A stretch of DNA of 38,107 nt from Actinomycetota bacterium. Lineage in GTDB: Bacteria > Actinomycetota > Acidimicrobiia > Acidimicrobiales > Ilumatobacteraceae. The stretch lies in contig WLGW01000011.1 of assembly GCA_009703055.1 (NCBI GenBank), positions 1 to 38,107 on the forward strand. Direction: 5' to 3'. Position 1 is the stretch's first letter. The number at the start of each line of letters is the position of its first letter. The notes under the pieces are model-generated. The model made no database searches, was not told where the DNA came from, and was given only the letters and a program-made list of their open reading frames with translations. Made by a program: the position numbers and the translations under genes. Positions 15,500 through 24,152 of this stretch are shown piece after piece.

Positions 15500-15514
15500 A
15501 GTACTTAAGTACTT
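15499..15514. promoter_or_regulatory. Perfect 16-bp palindrome, likely operator
   Basis: AAGTACTTAAGTACTT reads the same on both strands and is also a tandem repeat of AAGTACTT. It begins at the last base of the ferredoxin stop codon and lies about 90 bases before the HxlR gene. HxlR-family regulators such as YodB bind palindromes rich in TAC/GTA, so autoregulation by the downstream protein is a reasonable inference. Confidence 0.55.
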
Positions 15515-15604: not shown

Positions 15605-15940
15605 ATGACTATCCGCAAGAACTTCGACCACTTGAATCTTCCCCTGGCCGATGCTTTGGGCGTGGTGGGCGAATGGTGGACCCCATTGGTTGTGGTCTCT
15701 ATCGCTGGTGGGTCACATCGTTTTGAAGAGATTCAGAACGGTCTCACCATTGCGCGCAACATCCTCACTGACCGTCTGACAACTTTGGTGGATAACGAAG
15801 TAGTGGAAAAGCGCCAATACAGCAGCAAACCAAAACGGTACGAGTATCACCTCACGAAAAAGGGTGAGGCCGTTCTTCCGGCTTTTGAGCTTCTGGCTGC
15901 CTGGGGTGCCAAGTGGGTCACTCCCCACAAGAATCGGTAG
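15605..15940 (+). CDS. HxlR-family winged-helix transcriptional regulator
   Basis: A 111-residue DNA-binding protein of the HxlR/MarR-like winged-helix family. DALGVVGEWWTPLVVVSIAGGSHRFEEIQNGLTIA-type sequence covers the first helices, and ARNILTDRLTTLVDNEVVEKR forms the recognition helix, followed by the wing YEYHLTKKG. The usual Cys near the N-terminus, used for redox or quinone sensing in YodB and HypR, is absent, so it may respond to another signal. TATGGT (15591-15596) is 8 bases before the ATG. A perfect palindrome 90 bases upstream is the probable binding site. A truncated paralogue follows directly. Confidence 0.88.
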   Translation: MTIRKNFDHLNLPLADALGVVGEWWTPLVVVSIAGGSHRFEEIQNGLTIARNILTDRLTTLVDNEVVEKRQYSSKPKRYEYHLTKKGEAVLPAFELLAAWGAKWVTPHKNR

Positions 15941-16170: not shown

Positions 16171-17799
16171 ATGAATTCACAATTAAGCAAAAAACTGCAG
16201 CGCACATTGGTTGTTTTTCCTGCAATTGCAATGGTGGTGTCTGTTGGATGTGTCTCGGCATCTAGTGCGCACACTGATGTGTCACCCATTGCGAAGAAGG
16301 CACCATCAATTGTGAATGAAATGGGAAGTGCAGCCTGGCCAACTGCTCTTTCGGTACTTGCACGTCTCAAAGTCGCCACACCAATTGCAACGGGGACAAA
16401 AGATAAGCGAGCCCGATTCCGCCATTGGTCGGATTTGGATAAGGACGGCTGCGATACCCGCAGTGAAGTTCTGATTGCTGAGTCATCGACGCCAGCTCAG
16501 ATAGACGCTGCAAAATGTCAAGTCATTGAAGGCGATTGGCTTTCGTTGTTTGACGGTGTTCGACACACGAATACTTCGAATCTTCAGATTGATCACATGG
16601 TTCCGCTTGCTGAAGCCTGGGTTTCCGGTGCCGCCAGCTGGAGTGCTGCCAAGCGTGAACAATTCGCAAATGATCTGGATGATCCGCGCCCATTGATTGC
16701 TGTGACAGCTGAGATGAATCGAAAGAAGAACGCTGGAGCACCACATCAATGGTTGCCTCCAAGCAAGAGTTATCGATGCACATATCTTTCTGACTGGGTA
16801 GCAATCAAAAACAAGTGGAAACTAAGTGTTGATGTTGTCGAGCGCAATGCCATTCGAAAGTTATTGACGACTTCCTGCAAGACAACAACAGTGGCGCCAT
16901 GGGGCTCGAAGCAAACGGCATCGACGACAACGATTCCATCGAAAGGCGCATCAGGTTCCCAGACGGCACTTGCAGTCCTTGCCACCATCCCGCAAGCCAA
17001 AGAGCAGCAGACCGGTTATCAGCGTTCATTGTTCAAACACTGGTCAGATCTTGACGGCGATGGGTGTTCAACGCGCGAAGAAGTGTTGATTGCAGAGTCA
17101 CTCACCAAGGCACAAGTTGATGCATACGGCTGCAAGGTCGTCGCAGGTGATTGGTACTCGCCCTATGACAATCGGCGATACGAGTATCCGTCAGATGTTG
17201 ATATCGACCATGTTGTGGCTTTGAAGGAAGCTTGGGATTCTGGCGCTCACTCGTGGTCAGCTTCGAAGCGCGAACAGTTCGCCAATGATCTCAGCGATGA
17301 ACGGTCCCTCATTGCGGTGAAGGACTCTGAGAATCAATCGAAGAGCGACAAGGACCCTTCAAATTGGCTGCCGAAAAACTCCGCGTATCTCTGCACGTAT
17401 CTCGCCAACTGGGTCGCTGTGAAAGCACAGTGGGGTCTCAGCATGGACACCAGCGAATGGGGTCGCATCAAGAATCTGCTGACATCGTCGTGTGCAACTA
17501 CAACGATTGCTCCCTGGGGTTCGGGCAAGAGCACAGGTGCAGCATCCACGGGCGGCTCTTCCTCTGCCCCGGTTGGCACGACGGCGCCTGTGGCATCGCC
17601 GGCACCGGCCGTTCCACAGTCCACGGTGGCCCAGCAGCCGTCTGGTGGTTCAGGAACTATTCCGACAATTACCCCCGGTGCCTACTGCACACCTGAGGGA
17701 GCGAAAGGTACTTTCAATGCGAAAAGCTATGTCTGTGCCACAACGAATGCCTCTGGAGTTCCGTATTCCAACGGTCGCGCACGCTGGCGACAGGGGTAG
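16171..17799 (+). CDS. Secreted protein with two tandem HNH (DUF1524-type) nuclease domains
   Basis: A 542-residue exported protein. Residues 1-33 form a signal peptide (KKLQRTL, hydrophobic core, probable cleavage after ASSA). Two homologous domains follow, about 57-247 and 265-451. Each has HWSDLDxDGCxTRxEVLIAES, an HNH core with Asp-His at 141-142 and 346-347 (IDHMVPLAEAW, IDHVVALKEAW), SWSAxKREQFANDL, a conserved NWLP/QWLP, four matching Cys (94, 116, 203, 236 and 299, 321, 408, 441) and the end TTxAPWGS. A Ser/Pro/Thr linker leads to a small Cys-containing C-terminal module at about 500-542. Single-domain relatives are common secreted nucleases in actinobacteria. GGAGAAG precedes the ATG, a rare leadered start here. 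Confidence 0.85.
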   Translation: MNSQLSKKLQRTLVVFPAIAMVVSVGCVSASSAHTDVSPIAKKAPSIVNEMGSAAWPTALSVLARLKVATPIATGTKDKRARFRHWSDLDKDGCDTRSEVLIAESSTPAQIDAAKCQVIEGDWLSLFDGVRHTNTSNLQIDHMVPLAEAWVSGAASWSAAKREQFANDLDDPRPLIAVTAEMNRKKNAGAPHQWLPPSKSYRCTYLSDWVAIKNKWKLSVDVVERNAIRKLLTTSCKTTTVAPWGSKQTASTTTIPSKGASGSQTALAVLATIPQAKEQQTGYQRSLFKHWSDLDGDGCSTREEVLIAESLTKAQVDAYGCKVVAGDWYSPYDNRRYEYPSDVDIDHVVALKEAWDSGAHSWSASKREQFANDLSDERSLIAVKDSENQSKSDKDPSNWLPKNSAYLCTYLANWVAVKAQWGLSMDTSEWGRIKNLLTSSCATTTIAPWGSGKSTGAASTGGSSSAPVGTTAPVASPAPAVPQSTVAQQPSGGSGTIPTITPGAYCTPEGAKGTFNAKSYVCATTNASGVPYSNGRARWRQG

Positions 17800-19596: not shown

Positions 19597-19962
19597 ATGA
19601 CCCAGTCGGCAACTATGAAGTTCACAGCAGCAGCGCGAGTACTTGCTCAACGCTCAGCAGAACTTGAAATGGTTGTTCCCGGCTTTCGCAGTCCACCGCG
19701 TGTCGTCGGGGTGAACCGCACCATTCGCCGCTCTCGCGATGGCGTCGGAGGGGTCGTTGCTGTGCGCTTGTCCGATCGTCCCTTTACGGCAGTGATTGGC
19801 GACATGATCGAGGGCGTCGTGTGCATCAACCGACTCGAGCCACCAGAGGCCGATCGTGTTCGCACACTGCTGTGGCGCACTATGTTGCAGTTCACGGTCG
19901 AAATTTCTGGCAATTCCCGTCGCACCATTCGGTCAGAGCAGCCTTCTTCGCGCGTAGCCTAA
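19597..19962 (+). CDS. Conserved-looking protein of unknown function
   Basis: A 121-residue basic, soluble protein that I do not recognise. It has an alanine-rich N-terminal helix (MKFTAAARVLAQRSAELEM), a central segment VVPGFRSPPRVVGVNRTIRR and a beta-rich part VVAVRLSDRPFTAVIGDMIEGVVCINRL. CAGTAT (19585-19590) lies 6 bases before the ATG, the usual spacing here, which supports that it is a real gene. It diverges from the RecB-like nuclease and ends just upstream of tRNA-Leu, whose probable -10 overlaps the last codons. A link to the nuclease is only a contextual guess. Confidence 0.65.
   Translation: MTQSATMKFTAAARVLAQRSAELEMVVPGFRSPPRVVGVNRTIRRSRDGVGGVVAVRLSDRPFTAVIGDMIEGVVCINRLEPPEADRVRTLLWRTMLQFTVEISGNSRRTIRSEQPSSRVA
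19955..19960 (+). promoter_or_regulatory. Probable -10 element of tRNA-Leu
   Basis: TAGCCT lies 12 bases before the first base of the tRNA, so transcription would begin a few bases upstream and RNase P would trim the short leader. The hexamer overlaps the last codons of the upstream gene. Confidence 0.4.
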
Positions 19963-19972
19963 ATACGTTCCT

Positions 19973-20056
19973 GCCCGGATGGCGGAACTGGCAGACGCAG
20001 GGGGCTTAAACCCCCCGGAAGGCAACTTCTTGCGGGTTCGATTCCCGCTCCGGGCA
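19973..20056 (+). tRNA. tRNA-Leu (anticodon UAA)
   Basis: An 84-nt class II tRNA. The acceptor stem GCCCGGA pairs with TCCGGGC, the D-arm contains AACTGGCAGACGC, the anticodon loop CTTAAAC between GGGGG and CCCCC gives anticodon UAA, a long variable arm follows (GGAAGGCAACTTCTT), and the T-arm GCGGG-TTCGATT-CCCGC is canonical. The discriminator is A and CCA is not encoded. The signal-peptidase gene on the opposite strand runs 51 bases into it. Confidence 0.96.
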
Positions 20057-20590
20057 CTCAGATTCTTTGTGATGGCGCAGTTGGCGCACTTCATTGCGCA
20101 TTGTTAAAAACTCGGTGATCAAGATTGAGGCCAACAGCGGCATGAGCAGCATTGCGATCAACAGTGGGTGATTTGCAAATGGCTCAGCAGCAATGACAAT
20201 GCCAGGGGTGGAAACAACAGTCCCGTAAATCTGGCCATCAGTGAGTGTCCACGCATCTTCAGTGGCATTGGCGTCACCCTTTGTTTTAAACATGGTGTGT
20301 ACGACTCCATGGGGGTCAGTCGACTTCCAACGCTTTGTCACTCGGTGAGTCACGGTGTGGTCATCCACTTCAAAGGTGATGATGTCGCCCACTTCGGCAA
20401 CTTGCTTCGGATCAACCGTTATGATGTCGCCGATGTGAATAGTGGGTTCCATCGAACCACCAACGATGTGCAGGTGCATCTTCTCAGAACGCGCCGCTTG
20501 GGCGGTGGCCCCGGCTACCACAAGGGAGCCAAGGACCGCCGCCGTAGCTGACGCTGCCACGAAGGCAGAGAAGATGCGCCGAATGTTCAT
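20006..20590 (-). CDS. SipW-type (ER/archaeal-type) signal peptidase I
   Basis: A 194-residue membrane peptidase of family S26B. The N-terminal segment (about 8-30) is a membrane anchor. VGGSMEPTIHIGDII holds the nucleophile Ser46, THRVTKRW has His82 in the place of the usual Lys general base, and KTKGDANATED has the conserved Asp106; this Ser-His-Asp pattern is that of SipW and ER signal peptidases. A second hydrophobic segment lies at about 143-161. The last 17 residues are encoded by the antisense strand of tRNA-Leu and probably carry no function. The start overlaps the stop of the TasA-like gene (TAATG), so the peptidase and its likely substrate are co-translated. Confidence 0.88.
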   Translation of the reverse strand: MNIRRIFSAFVAASATAAVLGSLVVAGATAQAARSEKMHLHIVGGSMEPTIHIGDIITVDPKQVAEVGDIITFEVDDHTVTHRVTKRWKSTDPHGVVHTMFKTKGDANATEDAWTLTDGQIYGTVVSTPGIVIAAEPFANHPLLIAMLLMPLLASILITEFLTMRNEVRQLRHHKESECPERESNPQEVAFRGV

Positions 20591-21159
20591 TAGGCCTGTT
20601 CTGCTGCAATCGTCATGGTGACTTTTGAGGACTTACCGGCAACACCGTTAGGTGTTGACATGGGCAATTCGAATCGGAAGCACACTGTGTGTGAGCTTGC
20701 AGGTTCCATCAGTTGATTTTCAACATGCAGTTCTGTCAGTGAACTGGAGCGTGCAATCGATGTTCCTTTCTTGTATTCCTCTGCATTGCAGTTGGTGCCT
20801 TCATCCAACTTGTAGGTCTCAACCAAAATGGCATCCACCAACGGTGCTCCACTGTCTTTGGGTCGAGTAGTAGTGATGGCGTACTTGAAGTCCAATGATC
20901 CGGCGTTGGCCAGGTTCAGTGAGTGAAAGACAATGTCTCCTGGCTTCAGCTTGCTCAGTGCCACCTGATCTTTGCCGCCGACGGTGATGTCAACCCAGCC
21001 TGAAGAGACGTCCATACTGGTGTCCTCGGTGTCGGTGAACATTGCGCCCGAAGCTGCGGTGACAACTCCGAATCCGGCTGTGATCACTGTCGCCAGTGAG
21101 ATTCCCAGGCGGACCAGGTGGCGGCGGATGGATGGGCTGGTGTTTGGTGTTGTTTCCAT
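20590..21159 (-). CDS. TasA/camelysin-like exported protein with SipW-dependent signal peptide
   Basis: A 189-residue exported protein. A basic N-terminus (IRRHLVRLG) and hydrophobic stretch lead to ASGAMFTDTEDTSMDVSSG, the kind of sequence found at the cleavage site of SipW-processed proteins such as TasA and CalY. The mature part is beta-rich: VDITVGGKDQVALSKLKPGDIVFHSLNLANAGSLDFKYAI matches the PGD...F...N.G....Y pattern of the camelysin/TasA family. Two Cys (in GTNCNAEEY and HTVCFRFEL) could form a disulfide. In Bacillus such proteins form biofilm fibres; here a surface or fibre role is inferred. It is translationally coupled to the signal peptidase and lies downstream of palindromic sites and a two-component system. 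Confidence 0.8.
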   Translation of the reverse strand: METTPNTSPSIRRHLVRLGISLATVITAGFGVVTAASGAMFTDTEDTSMDVSSGWVDITVGGKDQVALSKLKPGDIVFHSLNLANAGSLDFKYAITTTRPKDSGAPLVDAILVETYKLDEGTNCNAEEYKKGTSIARSSSLTELHVENQLMEPASSHTVCFRFELPMSTPNGVAGKSSKVTMTIAAEQA

Positions 21160-21216
21160 ACAGACACTCAAACAATTTTTAAGGTTGCATTTGCCATGCT
21201 TCCGTACTCGTTGCTT

Positions 21217-21254
21217 AGTACCCGGGTACTCGCCGTGGAGGTACCTCGGTACCT
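21217..21254. promoter_or_regulatory. Cluster of GTAC-centred palindromes, likely operator
   Basis: AGTACCCGGGTACT (21217-21230) is a perfect 14-bp palindrome. GAGGTACCTC (21238-21247) is a perfect 10-bp palindrome, and a second GGTACCT follows at 21248-21254. They lie 58-95 bases upstream of the TasA-like ATG and beyond the kinase stop codon. The position suits an activator or repressor site, possibly for the NarL-type regulator encoded just upstream. Confidence 0.5.
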
Positions 21255-21287
21255 AGGCCTTTGGCATCTCCATATGGGGCAACAGAA

Positions 21288-22310
21288 TCAACTGATGGGG
21301 CAGACCCACGTCATGACAGAACCGCCATTGGGTCCTGGTTGCAGTGCGAATGACCCACCGTGGGTCGTTGCGCGATGTGCAAGCGACAACGTTCCACCTT
21401 TACGACGCTTCGAGCCTTGTGGACCAATGCCATCGTCAGTCACGGTGACAGAGATGGTGTCTGTTGTGACGAGAACAGATGCTTCAACGTTGGTTGCTTT
21501 CGCATGGCGAGCAGCATTCGAGAGAGCTTCTCGAAGAACATTCTCAACATCTTCGACGAGGTCGTCCGGTAATTCTCGTTCAAGGTGCACGTGAAGGGTA
21601 GGTGGCGAGGGCCAGGCACCTTTGAACATGTCAAAGACTTTCTCAATGCACTCTGTCAATGGCGGACGTGAATCGGGAGTGATGTCAAAAATGGTGCTGC
21701 GAATCTCGCTAATGACGTCATTGAGTGAATCAATTGCCCAGTTCTTGTCCTCACGTGTTTTCAAGTAAAGGCTGATGGCAAAGAGATTTTGAATAATGGA
21801 GTCATGTAGGTCTCGAGCGATGCGAGATCGCTCTGCTTCAAGAAGTGTTTGGCGAGTGGCATCGGTGAAGGCTTTTCGTTGTGCAATGAGTTCCATCTCA
21901 AGAGCTGTCATCTCGCTGAGGTCGGATCCAATTTCTACGATTGCATCACCCACCAGCATCCATGTCACTTCAATGCGAACAAGTAATTCGGGGGCCCGAT
22001 AGCGGTCTTCGGAGTTCTCTCCGATTGCGAAGGTTTGTTTCACGGTTCCTTGCTCAAGGACCTGCTCGACGATTTCGAGGACACCTTCTGGCTCGAAGTA
22101 TGCGGCCATCATGCTTTGTCCTACGACGGGTGGTTGAATACGAATCCCCTCGTATGCGTCGTTCCACCACTGAAGCTGTAAGTCAACAATGTCGCCATTT
22201 TCATTACGAACTGGTGTGTGCAGTCCGATGTAGTCACGCAAGTTCCTGAGAAGGGGCTCTACCTGATGGTCAGAACACATCCCCGCTGGAATCTCGACGG
22301 GACAAGGCAT
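21288..22310 (-). CDS. Soluble NarL-partner sensor histidine kinase (HisKA_3)
   Basis: A 340-residue kinase without membrane segments. Residues about 15-140 form a PAS-like sensor (GLHTPVRNENGDIVDLQLQWWNDAYEGI, typical of PAS domains). The dimerisation helix has the HisKA_3 signature SRIARDLHDSIIQNLFAI with phospho-acceptor His169. The ATPase domain shows the N box VLREALSNAARHA, the G1 box VTDDGIGP and GGTLSLAHRATTHGGSF. It signals to the LuxR/NarL-type regulator encoded just upstream. ATG at 22310 is chosen because it follows the regulator's stop codon by one base; in-frame starts further upstream would overlap that gene by up to 62 bases. A cytoplasmic ligand is implied. Confidence 0.88.
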   Translation of the reverse strand: MPCPVEIPAGMCSDHQVEPLLRNLRDYIGLHTPVRNENGDIVDLQLQWWNDAYEGIRIQPPVVGQSMMAAYFEPEGVLEIVEQVLEQGTVKQTFAIGENSEDRYRAPELLVRIEVTWMLVGDAIVEIGSDLSEMTALEMELIAQRKAFTDATRQTLLEAERSRIARDLHDSIIQNLFAISLYLKTREDKNWAIDSLNDVISEIRSTIFDITPDSRPPLTECIEKVFDMFKGAWPSPPTLHVHLERELPDDLVEDVENVLREALSNAARHAKATNVEASVLVTTDTISVTVTDDGIGPQGSKRRKGGTLSLAHRATTHGGSFALQPGPNGGSVMTWVCPIS

Positions 22311-22311
22311 C

Positions 22312-22977
22312 TCAGGAGTGTTTCTTGGTCTCTTGTGATTCAGGAAGATTTGCTGTTGCCACCATGACAGCAAGTTGTGTCCGGTTTGCAGCGCCCACCA
22401 CTGTCAATATGCGCGATACATGATTCTTAATGGTCTGCGTACTGAAGTTCATTGCGGCTGCAATCTCTTTGTCGGTCATGCCTTTAGAGATGAGTTCAGC
22501 AATTTCTCTATCTGTGCCTTCCAGCACGCTGACGCGAGTCGGGTTGGATTGCTGCAGTCGCTGAGATGCGGCACGGGCAGCGGAAGCGTCAATCAGACGC
22601 AGTCCTGCATGCACATCACGAATAGCTTCCGTGAGATCTCGTGTCGGCGCGCCTTTCAAAATGAGTGCGTCTGCCCCCGTCGAGTAGCCCTCGACGAGCA
22701 GTTCGTCTTCAAGAAAAGATGTGAGAAGAACAACGCGAATCGCCGATTGATTTGCTCGAATCCAGCGGGTGATGTCATGCCCAACGCCATCCGTCAGGCG
22801 CACGTCAATGACGGCAACATCGATTTTTCCTACGTTCTGTGCGAGATGTTTGAGACAGGCATCAACACTGCGGGCGGATGCCACTACTTCGAAATCGGCT
22901 TCTTCGGAGAGAACTCGCCCTAAGGCATCTCTCACCATGTCATGGTCGTCACAGAGAAGAATACGGATAGGCACCAT
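22312..22977 (-). CDS. NarL/LuxR-family response regulator
   Basis: A 221-residue response regulator. The receiver domain (about 4-120) has the acidic pair in LLCDDHD, the phospho-acceptor Asp58 in VAVIDVRL and the conserved Lys in LILKGAPT. The C-terminal LuxR-type helix-turn-helix (about 150-205) reads LEGTDREIAELISKGMTDKEIAAAMNFSTQTIKNHVSRIL. It is the first gene of a run with the kinase, the TasA-like protein and the signal peptidase, so control of export genes is likely. TAGCCT (22981-22986, minus strand) favours GTG at 22974 as a leaderless start; ATG at 22977 is given here as the longer option and the two differ by one codon. Confidence 0.92.
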   Translation of the reverse strand: MVPIRILLCDDHDMVRDALGRVLSEEADFEVVASARSVDACLKHLAQNVGKIDVAVIDVRLTDGVGHDITRWIRANQSAIRVVLLTSFLEDELLVEGYSTGADALILKGAPTRDLTEAIRDVHAGLRLIDASAARAASQRLQQSNPTRVSVLEGTDREIAELISKGMTDKEIAAAMNFSTQTIKNHVSRILTVVGAANRTQLAVMVATANLPESQETKKHS

Positions 22978-23039: not shown

Positions 23040-24152
23040 ATGCGTATTGACCGGATCCGAGTGGTGCGGACACCGCTTAACATGGTGAATCCGTTACGAA
23101 CCTCTGATGGAAGTCATGAGTCTCGTGTAGCAACTCTCATTGAACTGAGTACTACCGACGGTGTCATTGGTTGGGGTGAAAATGTTGCGCCAGCCGGAGT
23201 GTCGTATGTGGGCGAAAGCTCTGATGAATCGGTAGCAGCGATGTGTGATCTTTTGGCGCCTCTTCTGGCGGGTCGTGAGATTGATGTTTTCGAGATGATG
23301 CCCGAGTCATGGTGGGGAGTGAGTGGTCATAACTTCGCCAAGCACGCACTGGAGTCAGCGGTGTGGGACATTCATGCGCAACGAGAGTCGAAGTCATTGC
23401 GCGAAGTACTCGGCGGAACCCGCACTGCAATCGTTCCTGGTGTCGTTGTGGGTATATCTGACTCCGTTGCAGAAACTGTTGCAGAGGTTCAGCAGCGAAT
23501 CGCAGAAGGCTATGGCCGTGTGAAGGTCAAGATCTCTCCGGGGCGAGACGTTGAAGTGCTGCGTGCGATTCGCGCTACGTGTGGTGATGCGTTGCTGCTG
23601 CAAGCAGATGCCAATGCGGCGTATTCGAAAGACGACATTGAACTGCTGTGTTCTTTTGATGAATTCAATCTTCAATTCGTTGAGCAGCCGTTTGCGGCCG
23701 ATGACTTAGAGTCTCACGCAGAACTTGCGCGGCGCAGTCGCACCGCAGTGTGTCTCGATGAATCAATCTGCACCGTCGATGAATTGATGGGTGCAATTGA
23801 GATGAAGGCAGGTTCTGTCGTGAACGTCAAGCCTTCTCGTGTTGGTGGAATCGGTGCAGCAGTGCAGATGCATCACATTGTGAAGTCACATGGCATTGAC
23901 GCATGGGTCGGGGGAATGCTGGAGTCCGGTATTGGCCGTGCTTCGTGTTTGGCCTTGGCGTCTCTTTCAGGATTCACGATGACCCCTGACCTCTCTGCAT
24001 CATCGCGGTACTTTGCTTCTGACATCACCGTCCCGTTTGAGATGGTGAATGGTGAAATTCAGGTGCCCGAGGGGCCGGGTATTGGTGTGCAGCCTCTGCC
24101 TGAGGTGCTTTCTGCACCTGAAACCCGAATACAAACCGTCTTTGAGCGCTGA
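23040..24152 (+). CDS. Enolase-superfamily enzyme of the OSBS/N-succinylamino-acid racemase type
   Basis: A 370-residue enolase-superfamily protein of the MLE subgroup. The catalytic Lys pair is in YGRVKVKISPG and NVKPSRVGG, metal ligands in LLQADANAAY, FVEQPFA and CLDESI. The C-terminal GMLESGIGRAS, LSASSRYFASDIT and GPGIGV are typical of o-succinylbenzoate synthase / N-succinylamino-acid racemase (NSAR) enzymes, which often do both reactions. No menaquinone genes are near; instead an M20 amidohydrolase follows 20 bases later. That favours an NSAR role, racemising N-acyl amino acids before deacylation. CATGAT (23028-23033) lies 6 bases before the ATG. OSBS (MenC) remains the main alternative. 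Confidence 0.82.
   Translation: MRIDRIRVVRTPLNMVNPLRTSDGSHESRVATLIELSTTDGVIGWGENVAPAGVSYVGESSDESVAAMCDLLAPLLAGREIDVFEMMPESWWGVSGHNFAKHALESAVWDIHAQRESKSLREVLGGTRTAIVPGVVVGISDSVAETVAEVQQRIAEGYGRVKVKISPGRDVEVLRAIRATCGDALLLQADANAAYSKDDIELLCSFDEFNLQFVEQPFAADDLESHAELARRSRTAVCLDESICTVDELMGAIEMKAGSVVNVKPSRVGGIGAAVQMHHIVKSHGIDAWVGGMLESGIGRASCLALASLSGFTMTPDLSASSRYFASDITVPFEMVNGEIQVPEGPGIGVQPLPEVLSAPETRIQTVFER

Follow-up and report, generated by a model that had tools for sequence, protein, structure and literature searches.

In Clostridium perfringens, the sipW-bsaABCRSD locus has been described experimentally as carrying its own two-component system, which sipW needs for its transcription and the regulator of which attaches to the sipW promoter (PMC7395162, excerpted text); camelysin-like genes are also altered in C. 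perfringens regulator mutants (PMC4877802, excerpts). Two Bacillus loci likewise couple a TasA-family protein to SipW, under other control. The tapA-sipW-tasA operon of Bacillus subtilis (described in the excerpted part of PMC9674648) is controlled by SinR, has no linked two-component system, includes TapA and places sipW before tasA, while the Bacillus cereus sipW-tasA/calY locus is under SinR/PlcR control, with a CapP chaperone and two subunits (PMC13082335, excerpts). Archaeal bundling pili are TasA-related fibres as well (PMC9674648, same excerpts).

We analysed a window of 38,107 nucleotides (the whole stretch of contig WLGW01000011.1 that was studied) from an Ilumatobacteraceae genome and favour, with reasonable rather than strong confidence, reading four genes on its minus strand as a self-contained, self-regulated TasA-type surface-fibre cassette, most simply gained once beside a tRNA-Leu gene. 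By gene content the cassette matches sipW-bsaABCRSD in having SipW, an exported TasA-like protein (here a presumed polymer) and two-component genes of its own. The Clostridium locus belongs to a different phylum, holds its regulator genes inside the structural operon and encodes several exported proteins (PMC7395162, excerpted text), whereas here the regulator pair comes first, one protein is exported and a GTAC array is present. A TasA fold with a dedicated SipW is common to the B. subtilis operon, and membership of the camelysin/TasA family alongside SipW is common to the B. cereus locus. An earlier note on this DNA had put the module forward as its best candidate for an undescribed system; the wiring has a precedent in sipW-bsaABCRSD, as far as the excerpted account of that locus goes (PMC7395162), so that the locus looks like a variant in a new bacterial group, and not a new kind of system. 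What is new is the GTAC array before tasA and the signs of an imported fibre domain. The features are as follows.

23040–24152, plus strand: menC-like gene of the enolase superfamily, conserved right border of the cassette
22312–22977, minus strand: NarL/LuxR-type response regulator, 221 aa (PF00072, E 9.4e-19; PF00196, E 4.5e-12)
21288–22310, minus strand: 340-aa soluble histidine kinase (ATG start), with PAS-like N-terminus, HisKA_3 and HATPase_c
21204–21252, no strand assigned: putative operator with five GTAC sites, its core kept in 7/7 carriers
20590–21159, minus strand: exported protein of the TasA/camelysin family, 189 aa (PF12389, E 6.9e-10; profile matches; fold)
20006–20590, minus strand: SipW/ER-type signal peptidase, 194 aa (TIGR02228; SEC11A profile match; alignment)
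19973–20057, plus strand: tRNA-Leu(taa), conserved left border of the cassette

Positions and strand of the four reading frames are as the earlier note gave them, and profile searches confirmed their families. The single base that it placed between regulator and kinase is right (regulator stop TGA at 22314–22312, kinase ATG at 22310), as is the TAATG overlap of tasA stop and sipW start at 20590. Its length of 189 aa for the tasA product follows from the most likely start, ATG 21159, which is present in 7/7 aligned rows; an upstream TTG at 21171 occurs in six of the seven and is absent in G026. A gap of 128 bp separates the regulator–kinase pair from the tasA–sipW pair. The 3′ end of sipW overlaps tRNA-Leu by 52 bp in antisense, and the final 16 SipW residues are an antisense reading of the tRNA-Leu(taa) gene.

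Pfam searches and alignment found a receiver (Response_reg) and a GerE helix-turn-helix in the regulator, whose orthologues in the other six carriers are 58–98% identical. The kinase has HisKA_3 and HATPase_c, with RDLHD invariant in all seven carriers, and was correctly called soluble: no 19-residue window exceeded a hydrophobicity of 1.6 and no transmembrane segment was found. Its description as ‘PAS-type’ stands only in part, as no PAS family matched at E 0.1 and a PAS-like order of elements appears in a model of modest quality (mean pLDDT 63.6, which is weak; block pLDDT 36–84 across these elements), the best fold matches of which are LOV/PAS kinases and DesK. Matches to this kinase at 57–100% identity occur in exactly the seven carriers among 32 genomes; the remaining matches are paralogues at 31–37% identity.

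The exported protein belongs to the TasA/camelysin superfamily (Peptidase_M73, PF12389, 39.5 bits; gathering cut-off 22.5), matched TasA-type structures by sequence profile (8aur, E 1.6e-10; 5of1, E 4.2e-10) and had 8aur as its first Foldseek match in the PDB (E 2.4e-5). Pyrobaculum bundling pili (7ueg) ranked second, at E 3.5e-4, but are archaeal and only 14% identical, and the Sulfolobus 0406 filament ranked 27th, weakly (E 9.8e-3), amid many unrelated beta-sandwiches. In direct comparison with TasA, VIA gave Z 8.6 and an rmsd of 3.1 Å across 126 residues, near the values for other beta-sandwiches (CanA, 8.3; sialidase and hexosaminidase domains, 8.1–8.2); this margin is small, and the sequence profile therefore bears most weight. 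Resemblance to TasA in structure, on which the earlier note had let its reading depend, was thus borne out by Foldseek, VIA and profile together. The score against the TasA equivalog NF046066 (24.1 bits; curated cut-off 450) is so far below the cut-off that we regard the protein as a TasA relative and not TasA proper. Cleavage is predicted after A39, leaving a mature protein of 150 aa, and A39 is invariant in 27/27 aligned rows (15 of 28 non-window rows, five family rows and the seven carriers; 13 rows that were weak, partial or repeats were dropped). In the monomer model residues 1–54 are unstructured, which would be compatible with a donor strand. Searched to E 1, the SipW-cognate signal peptide model TIGR04088 did not match this protein; on a distant relative in L082 it scored 24.2 bits (cut-off 19). 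Neither a TapA-like partner nor a wall anchor was seen within the cassette. The protein probably builds fibres on the surface that are akin to TasA, the biofilm fibre of Bacillus.

Signal peptidases of the ER/SipW type use Ser and His instead of Ser-Lys. The peptidase scored 72 bits against TIGR02228 (cut-off 51.85), matched a SEC11A profile (E 4.3e-7) and has Ser46 and His82 invariant in all seven carriers, three lines that agree with its earlier assignment to this type; its 58.5 bits against NF046067, the Bacillus SipW equivalog, lie below the curated cut-off of 190.

Between the kinase and tasA, GTAC occurs at 21204, 21218, 21226, 21241 and 21249, 45–90 nt upstream of the tasA ATG, and a core of GTAC-n4-GTAC-n9/10-GTAC is kept in every carrier. 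These sites are clustered beyond chance: five lie in 53 bp, and simulated windows (n = 400), poorer in GTAC (mean 50) than the real one (86), reached three at most. A triple with the wider gap was found at tasA in 7/7 carriers; of its 22 rows across the 32 genomes, 8 lay elsewhere. A stricter triple was found in six of these genomes, at tasA in five carriers and at one chance-like place in G006, and misses carriers G001 and G008 because the spacing there is one base shorter. The reversed control for the triple matched more often than the pattern itself, by our own reading because its CATG words are commoner, and is not a clean yardstick. A genome-wide regulon was sought with the GTAC pair and rejected, as the window's own genome gave 11 rows (8 places) versus 24 in the reversed control; pairs outside the promoter are therefore not evidence. 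The same three-GTAC geometry stands 37–61 nt upstream of sipW at a second SipW/camelysin locus of carrier G003, and no GTAC pair was found before the sipW of non-carrier G018. We infer that the array is a putative operator of tasA–sipW to which the regulator would bind.

We propose that the cytoplasmic PAS-like kinase would sense an internal cue and phosphorylate the NarL-type regulator, which would bind the GTAC array and switch on tasA–sipW; the TasA-like protein would then be exported and cut after Ala39 by its dedicated SipW, and the N-terminal strand thereby released may fill in the beta-sandwich of a neighbouring subunit, so that a fibre would grow at the cell surface. That the exported protein is instead a protease, or an adhesin that stays monomeric or bound to the cell, making no fibre under the same switch and peptidase, seems to us rather unlikely: B. 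cereus CalY is reported to work both as adhesin and as fibre (PMC13082335, excerpts), the Pfam family is named for a metallo-endopeptidase (camelysin), and there is one subunit gene and no TapA, but the two leading Foldseek matches (TasA and the Pyrobaculum pili) are strand-donating fibres, a further filament (Sulfolobus 0406) was weakly matched and no HExxH zinc motif was visible by eye. Quite improbable, and the least credited of the alternatives, is that the two-component pair is a mere neighbour controlling other genes, with tasA–sipW constitutive or otherwise controlled. The 128-bp gap would suit it, as would the finding that, of 22 tasA loci from other genera in the order (several of them on short contigs), none has a relative of this kinase nearby; against it, each of the 32 genomes has either both this kinase and tasA or neither, the GTAC triple accompanies tasA in all carriers, and in non-carrier G018 a paralogous kinase–regulator pair lies immediately before another sipW and exported protein.

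The four genes of the proposed fibre cassette keep both their order and their location in 7/32 congeneric genomes (split across two contigs in G008), so that their order is not chance and is conserved beyond the strain, the other point on which the earlier reading hung. In carriers the cassette always sits between tRNA-Leu and the menC-like gene; ten relatives without it have a bare junction, with tRNA-Leu 16–26 bp from the menC ATG. In a tree of 19 genomes, some with partial genes and rooted at G016 (eight of 27 menC matches lay away from this tRNA-Leu and were left out), the carriers formed one group (UFBoot 86; deepest carrier split, 63), and a tasA match was absent from all non-carriers, including the sister clade and outgroups. 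The tree favours a single gain, most simply in the last common ancestor of a single clade within an Ilumatobacteraceae genus, which would have taken place beside the 3′ end of the tRNA-Leu gene. An ancestral cassette repeatedly lost is improbable: the two support values are modest, the root was our choice and no clear att-like duplication is present (longest shared string 4–6 nt in the six carriers tested), but the sister clade and outgroups without tasA mean that at least three losses would be needed under this root. A mobile-element origin was considered and rejected, as a search of 72,556 plasmid records with the tasA protein gave no match at E 1e-3, no integrase is among the four genes, and att duplication was not convincing in those six carriers. 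Non-carrier G028 has a different insert in the same tRNA–menC slot, which encodes a surface protein with LamG and may retain a remnant of the tRNA 3′ end (a script found 7 exact nt; by eye, 11/12 agree with one mismatch).

Between close strains, tasA is the deepest dip in identity, and not the sole one: an intergenic bin at 19642 falls to 78–80%, and menC falls to 76–77% around 23242–23392, to G012 only. The dS of tasA was 1.33 and 1.05 versus 0.35 and 0.15 for the kinase, with sipW raised less (0.67 and 0.74), and omega for tasA was 0.14 and 0.16. Positive selection is not favoured as the main cause because synonymous divergence is raised too; import of an allele would fit the divergence better, and these comparisons carry signs that the mature fibre domain of the window may be such an import.

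The locus shows that TasA-type fibre genes that come with their own control also occur in a little-studied family of actinobacteria, with a concrete putative operator and a fibre domain that diverges on its own between close strains. By pattern and eye, no two-component genes were found nearby at five of eight other SipW loci of the genus. Titles and abstract openings in one open-access library gave no SipW/TasA in Acidimicrobiia and no SipW–GGDEF fusion. As a tentative generalization, possible but more doubtful than not, SipW/TasA-type fibres of Acidimicrobiales may be exchangeable cassettes, many with their own intracellular switch, which may be either a soluble two-component system acting through a GTAC array or c-di-GMP domains joined directly to the signal peptidase; strains would exchange the mature fibre domain and keep the switch, as would befit a surface structure that phage or grazers attack. 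In some relatives within the order, SipW is fused to GGDEF-EAL domains; these loci resemble the cassette in having camelysin-like genes near SipW and a signalling module, but have the c-di-GMP domains fused to the peptidase where the cassette has a two-component system. Such fused proteins in related families suggest that a link between matrix-protein export and intracellular signalling arose more than once.

The gene order proposed for this stretch of the window, a regulator, kinase, TasA-like protein and dedicated SipW peptidase, is present as described and was kept, in unchanged order and place, in all seven congeneric genomes that bear the cassette (carriers), in G008 across two contigs. 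Open-reading-frame analysis placed the genes as follows:

22312-22977, minus strand, NarL-type regulator
21288-22310, minus strand, histidine kinase
20590-21159, minus strand, tasA-like gene
20006-20590, minus strand, sipW

Hydropathy revealed no transmembrane stretch in the kinase, a single N-terminal hydrophobic segment in the TasA-like protein and two in SipW, one close to each terminus. The final 16 SipW residues and stop codon (20006-20057) are encoded antisense to tRNA-Leu in six of the seven carriers, the exception being G003, whose SipW ends shortly ahead of this stretch. The host genome (1.58 Mb, 119 contigs, 78.5% complete) belongs to the Ilumatobacteraceae, within Acidimicrobiales, Actinomycetota. 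The cassette is real, conserved and well formed, and its proposed mechanism is plausible. Nearby (16171-17799, plus strand) is the gene of a 542-residue, secreted-looking protein in which two segments match PF07510, the nuclease domain GmrSD_C; it also lies close to the cassette in three relatives with contigs extending that far.

The earlier note had put the module forward as a candidate for an undescribed system, which is not supported. According to PMC7395162, Clostridium perfringens, like the window, links a two-component switch to its SipW genes: expression of sipW-bsaA requires BsaR/BsaS, whose signal is stated there as unknown, and BsaR binds the sipW promoter. A built-in switch therefore has precedent, and the cassette looks like an Acidimicrobiales variant of such a SipW/TasA arrangement.

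The claimed resemblance of the exported protein to TasA was upheld. A profile built from 27 relatives matched TasA entries 8aur and 5of1 in the PDB, and Foldseek with an AlphaFold2 model (mean pLDDT 69.6; below 50 for residues 1-54, 73-92 in blocks from residue 71 onward) returned the TasA fibre as top match, followed by archaeal bundling pili. VIA gave Z 8.6 against TasA, with CanA and glycosidase domains nearly equal (8.1-8.3). A39, invariant in 27/27 aligned rows, lies where cleavage would be expected by analogy with TasA. Two cysteines, C124 and C160, are invariant across the carriers. TasA assembles through N-terminal strand donation, as described in PMC9674648.

Ahead of tasA, all seven carriers have a putative operator, GTAC-n4-GTAC-n9/10-GTAC, at fixed spacing, with a second GTAC pair in the window, G012 and G015. 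The window holds up to five GTAC sites per 53 bp, a density that none of 400 first-order simulations reached, their maximum being three; the simulations average 50 GTAC per window, fewer than the real 86. Scanning 32 genomes for GTAC-n4-GTAC-n8/12-GTAC gave 22 rows. The seven carriers account for 14 of these, all at their tasA promoters; the remaining eight lie at other places, one of them preceding a second sipW (G003:C15). No GTAC pair precedes sipW in G018; in G011, sipW lies too close to a contig end for its upstream sites to be judged. A palindromic GTAC pair resembling those at tasA, AGTACTTAAGTACTT (15500-15514), lies ahead of a small gene (15605-15940) that looks winged-helix by eye; this pair is within chance expectation.

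We found tasA in 7/32 congeneric genomes and 11/61 relatives overall, in ten of the 200 genomes sampled from the family (those seven plus three others) and, by profile search, in 23 of 347 sampled order genomes; these are drafts, so individual absences may be gaps. The menC-like gene that flanks the cassette occurs in 27/32 congeneric genomes, including all seven carriers. Ten of these 27 have a bare junction, with tRNA-Leu 16-26 bp from menC; the distance is 119 bp in G016, another insert fills the slot in G028, and eight genomes have no tRNA-Leu close to menC. The empty junctions are positive evidence for absence of the cassette. The G028 insert (L085:1606-3276, minus strand) encodes a 556-residue LamG surface protein in which a threonine-rich linker and a C-terminal hydrophobic segment are recognizable by eye. 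A tree built from four proteins in 19 genomes, with the root set by our choice at G016, groups the carriers together (UFBoot 86), and one gain would be the simplest history.

Within the cassette, tasA has diverged. DNA identity of the window gene to its two closest relatives, G012 and G015, is 74% and 72%, respectively, compared with 95% and 92% for the kinase and 93% and 97% for the regulator; sipW is slightly low (83% and 82%), and menC also drops against G012 (76-77%). The tasA promoter is 96% and 79% identical, and the lowest values (62-69%) fall at 20692-20991, within the mature domain. The dS of tasA is about four and about seven times that of the kinase, while G012 and G015 tasA are 90% identical to each other. 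We read this as pointing to import of a divergent tasA allele in the window's lineage.

SipW matches above the family cut-off number 15 in the genus, in 14/32 genomes, seven being cassettes. In G018, kinase, regulator, sipW and an exported-protein gene truncated by the contig end are consecutive; counterparts of this protein score 24.8 bits to camelysin in G017, above the 22.5 cut-off, and 18.1 bits, below it, in G011. G011 has the same kinase, a regulator interrupted by a contig end and, on a separate contig that we infer joins the first, sipW with two exported proteins. In G002, sipW adjoins genes for a regulator and for a membrane protein whose HATPase match falls below threshold. Pattern search and inspection found no two-component genes near sipW in G017, G019, G003:C15, G030 or G007. 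Carriers also have a paralogous kinase-regulator pair without sipW, near ATP-synthase and, where visible (contig ends limit the view in some), glycosyltransferase-like genes, labelled by eye. Among 22 tasA loci outside the genus, none had a relative of the cassette kinase and three had one of the regulator (27-30%). A second SipW module, with or without a two-component pair, occurs in some relatives; at L144, L170, L173 and L174 it comprises sipW and one or two exported proteins in a GlyA/ATP-synthase neighbourhood (by eye).

Five genes, in G138, G140, G052, G472 and G344, fuse a SipW domain to GGDEF and EAL, with camelysin-like genes nearby:

L082:10827-13796, minus strand, SipW-GGDEF-EAL fusion
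L083:279-3308, plus strand, SipW-GGDEF-EAL fusion
L023:10216-13209, minus strand, SipW-GGDEF-EAL fusion
L131:1217-4507, plus strand, SipW-GGDEF-EAL fusion
L137:4106-7210, plus strand, SipW-GGDEF-EAL fusion

The proteins, from two families of the order, are about 990-1100 residues long (two lengths counted stop to stop), and their SipW domains score 61.9-82.5 bits against the TIGR02228 cut-off of 51.85. The fusion, not reported in the titles and abstract beginnings covered by our literature search, would tie export of a matrix protein to c-di-GMP. The end of a sixth such gene is present in G127.
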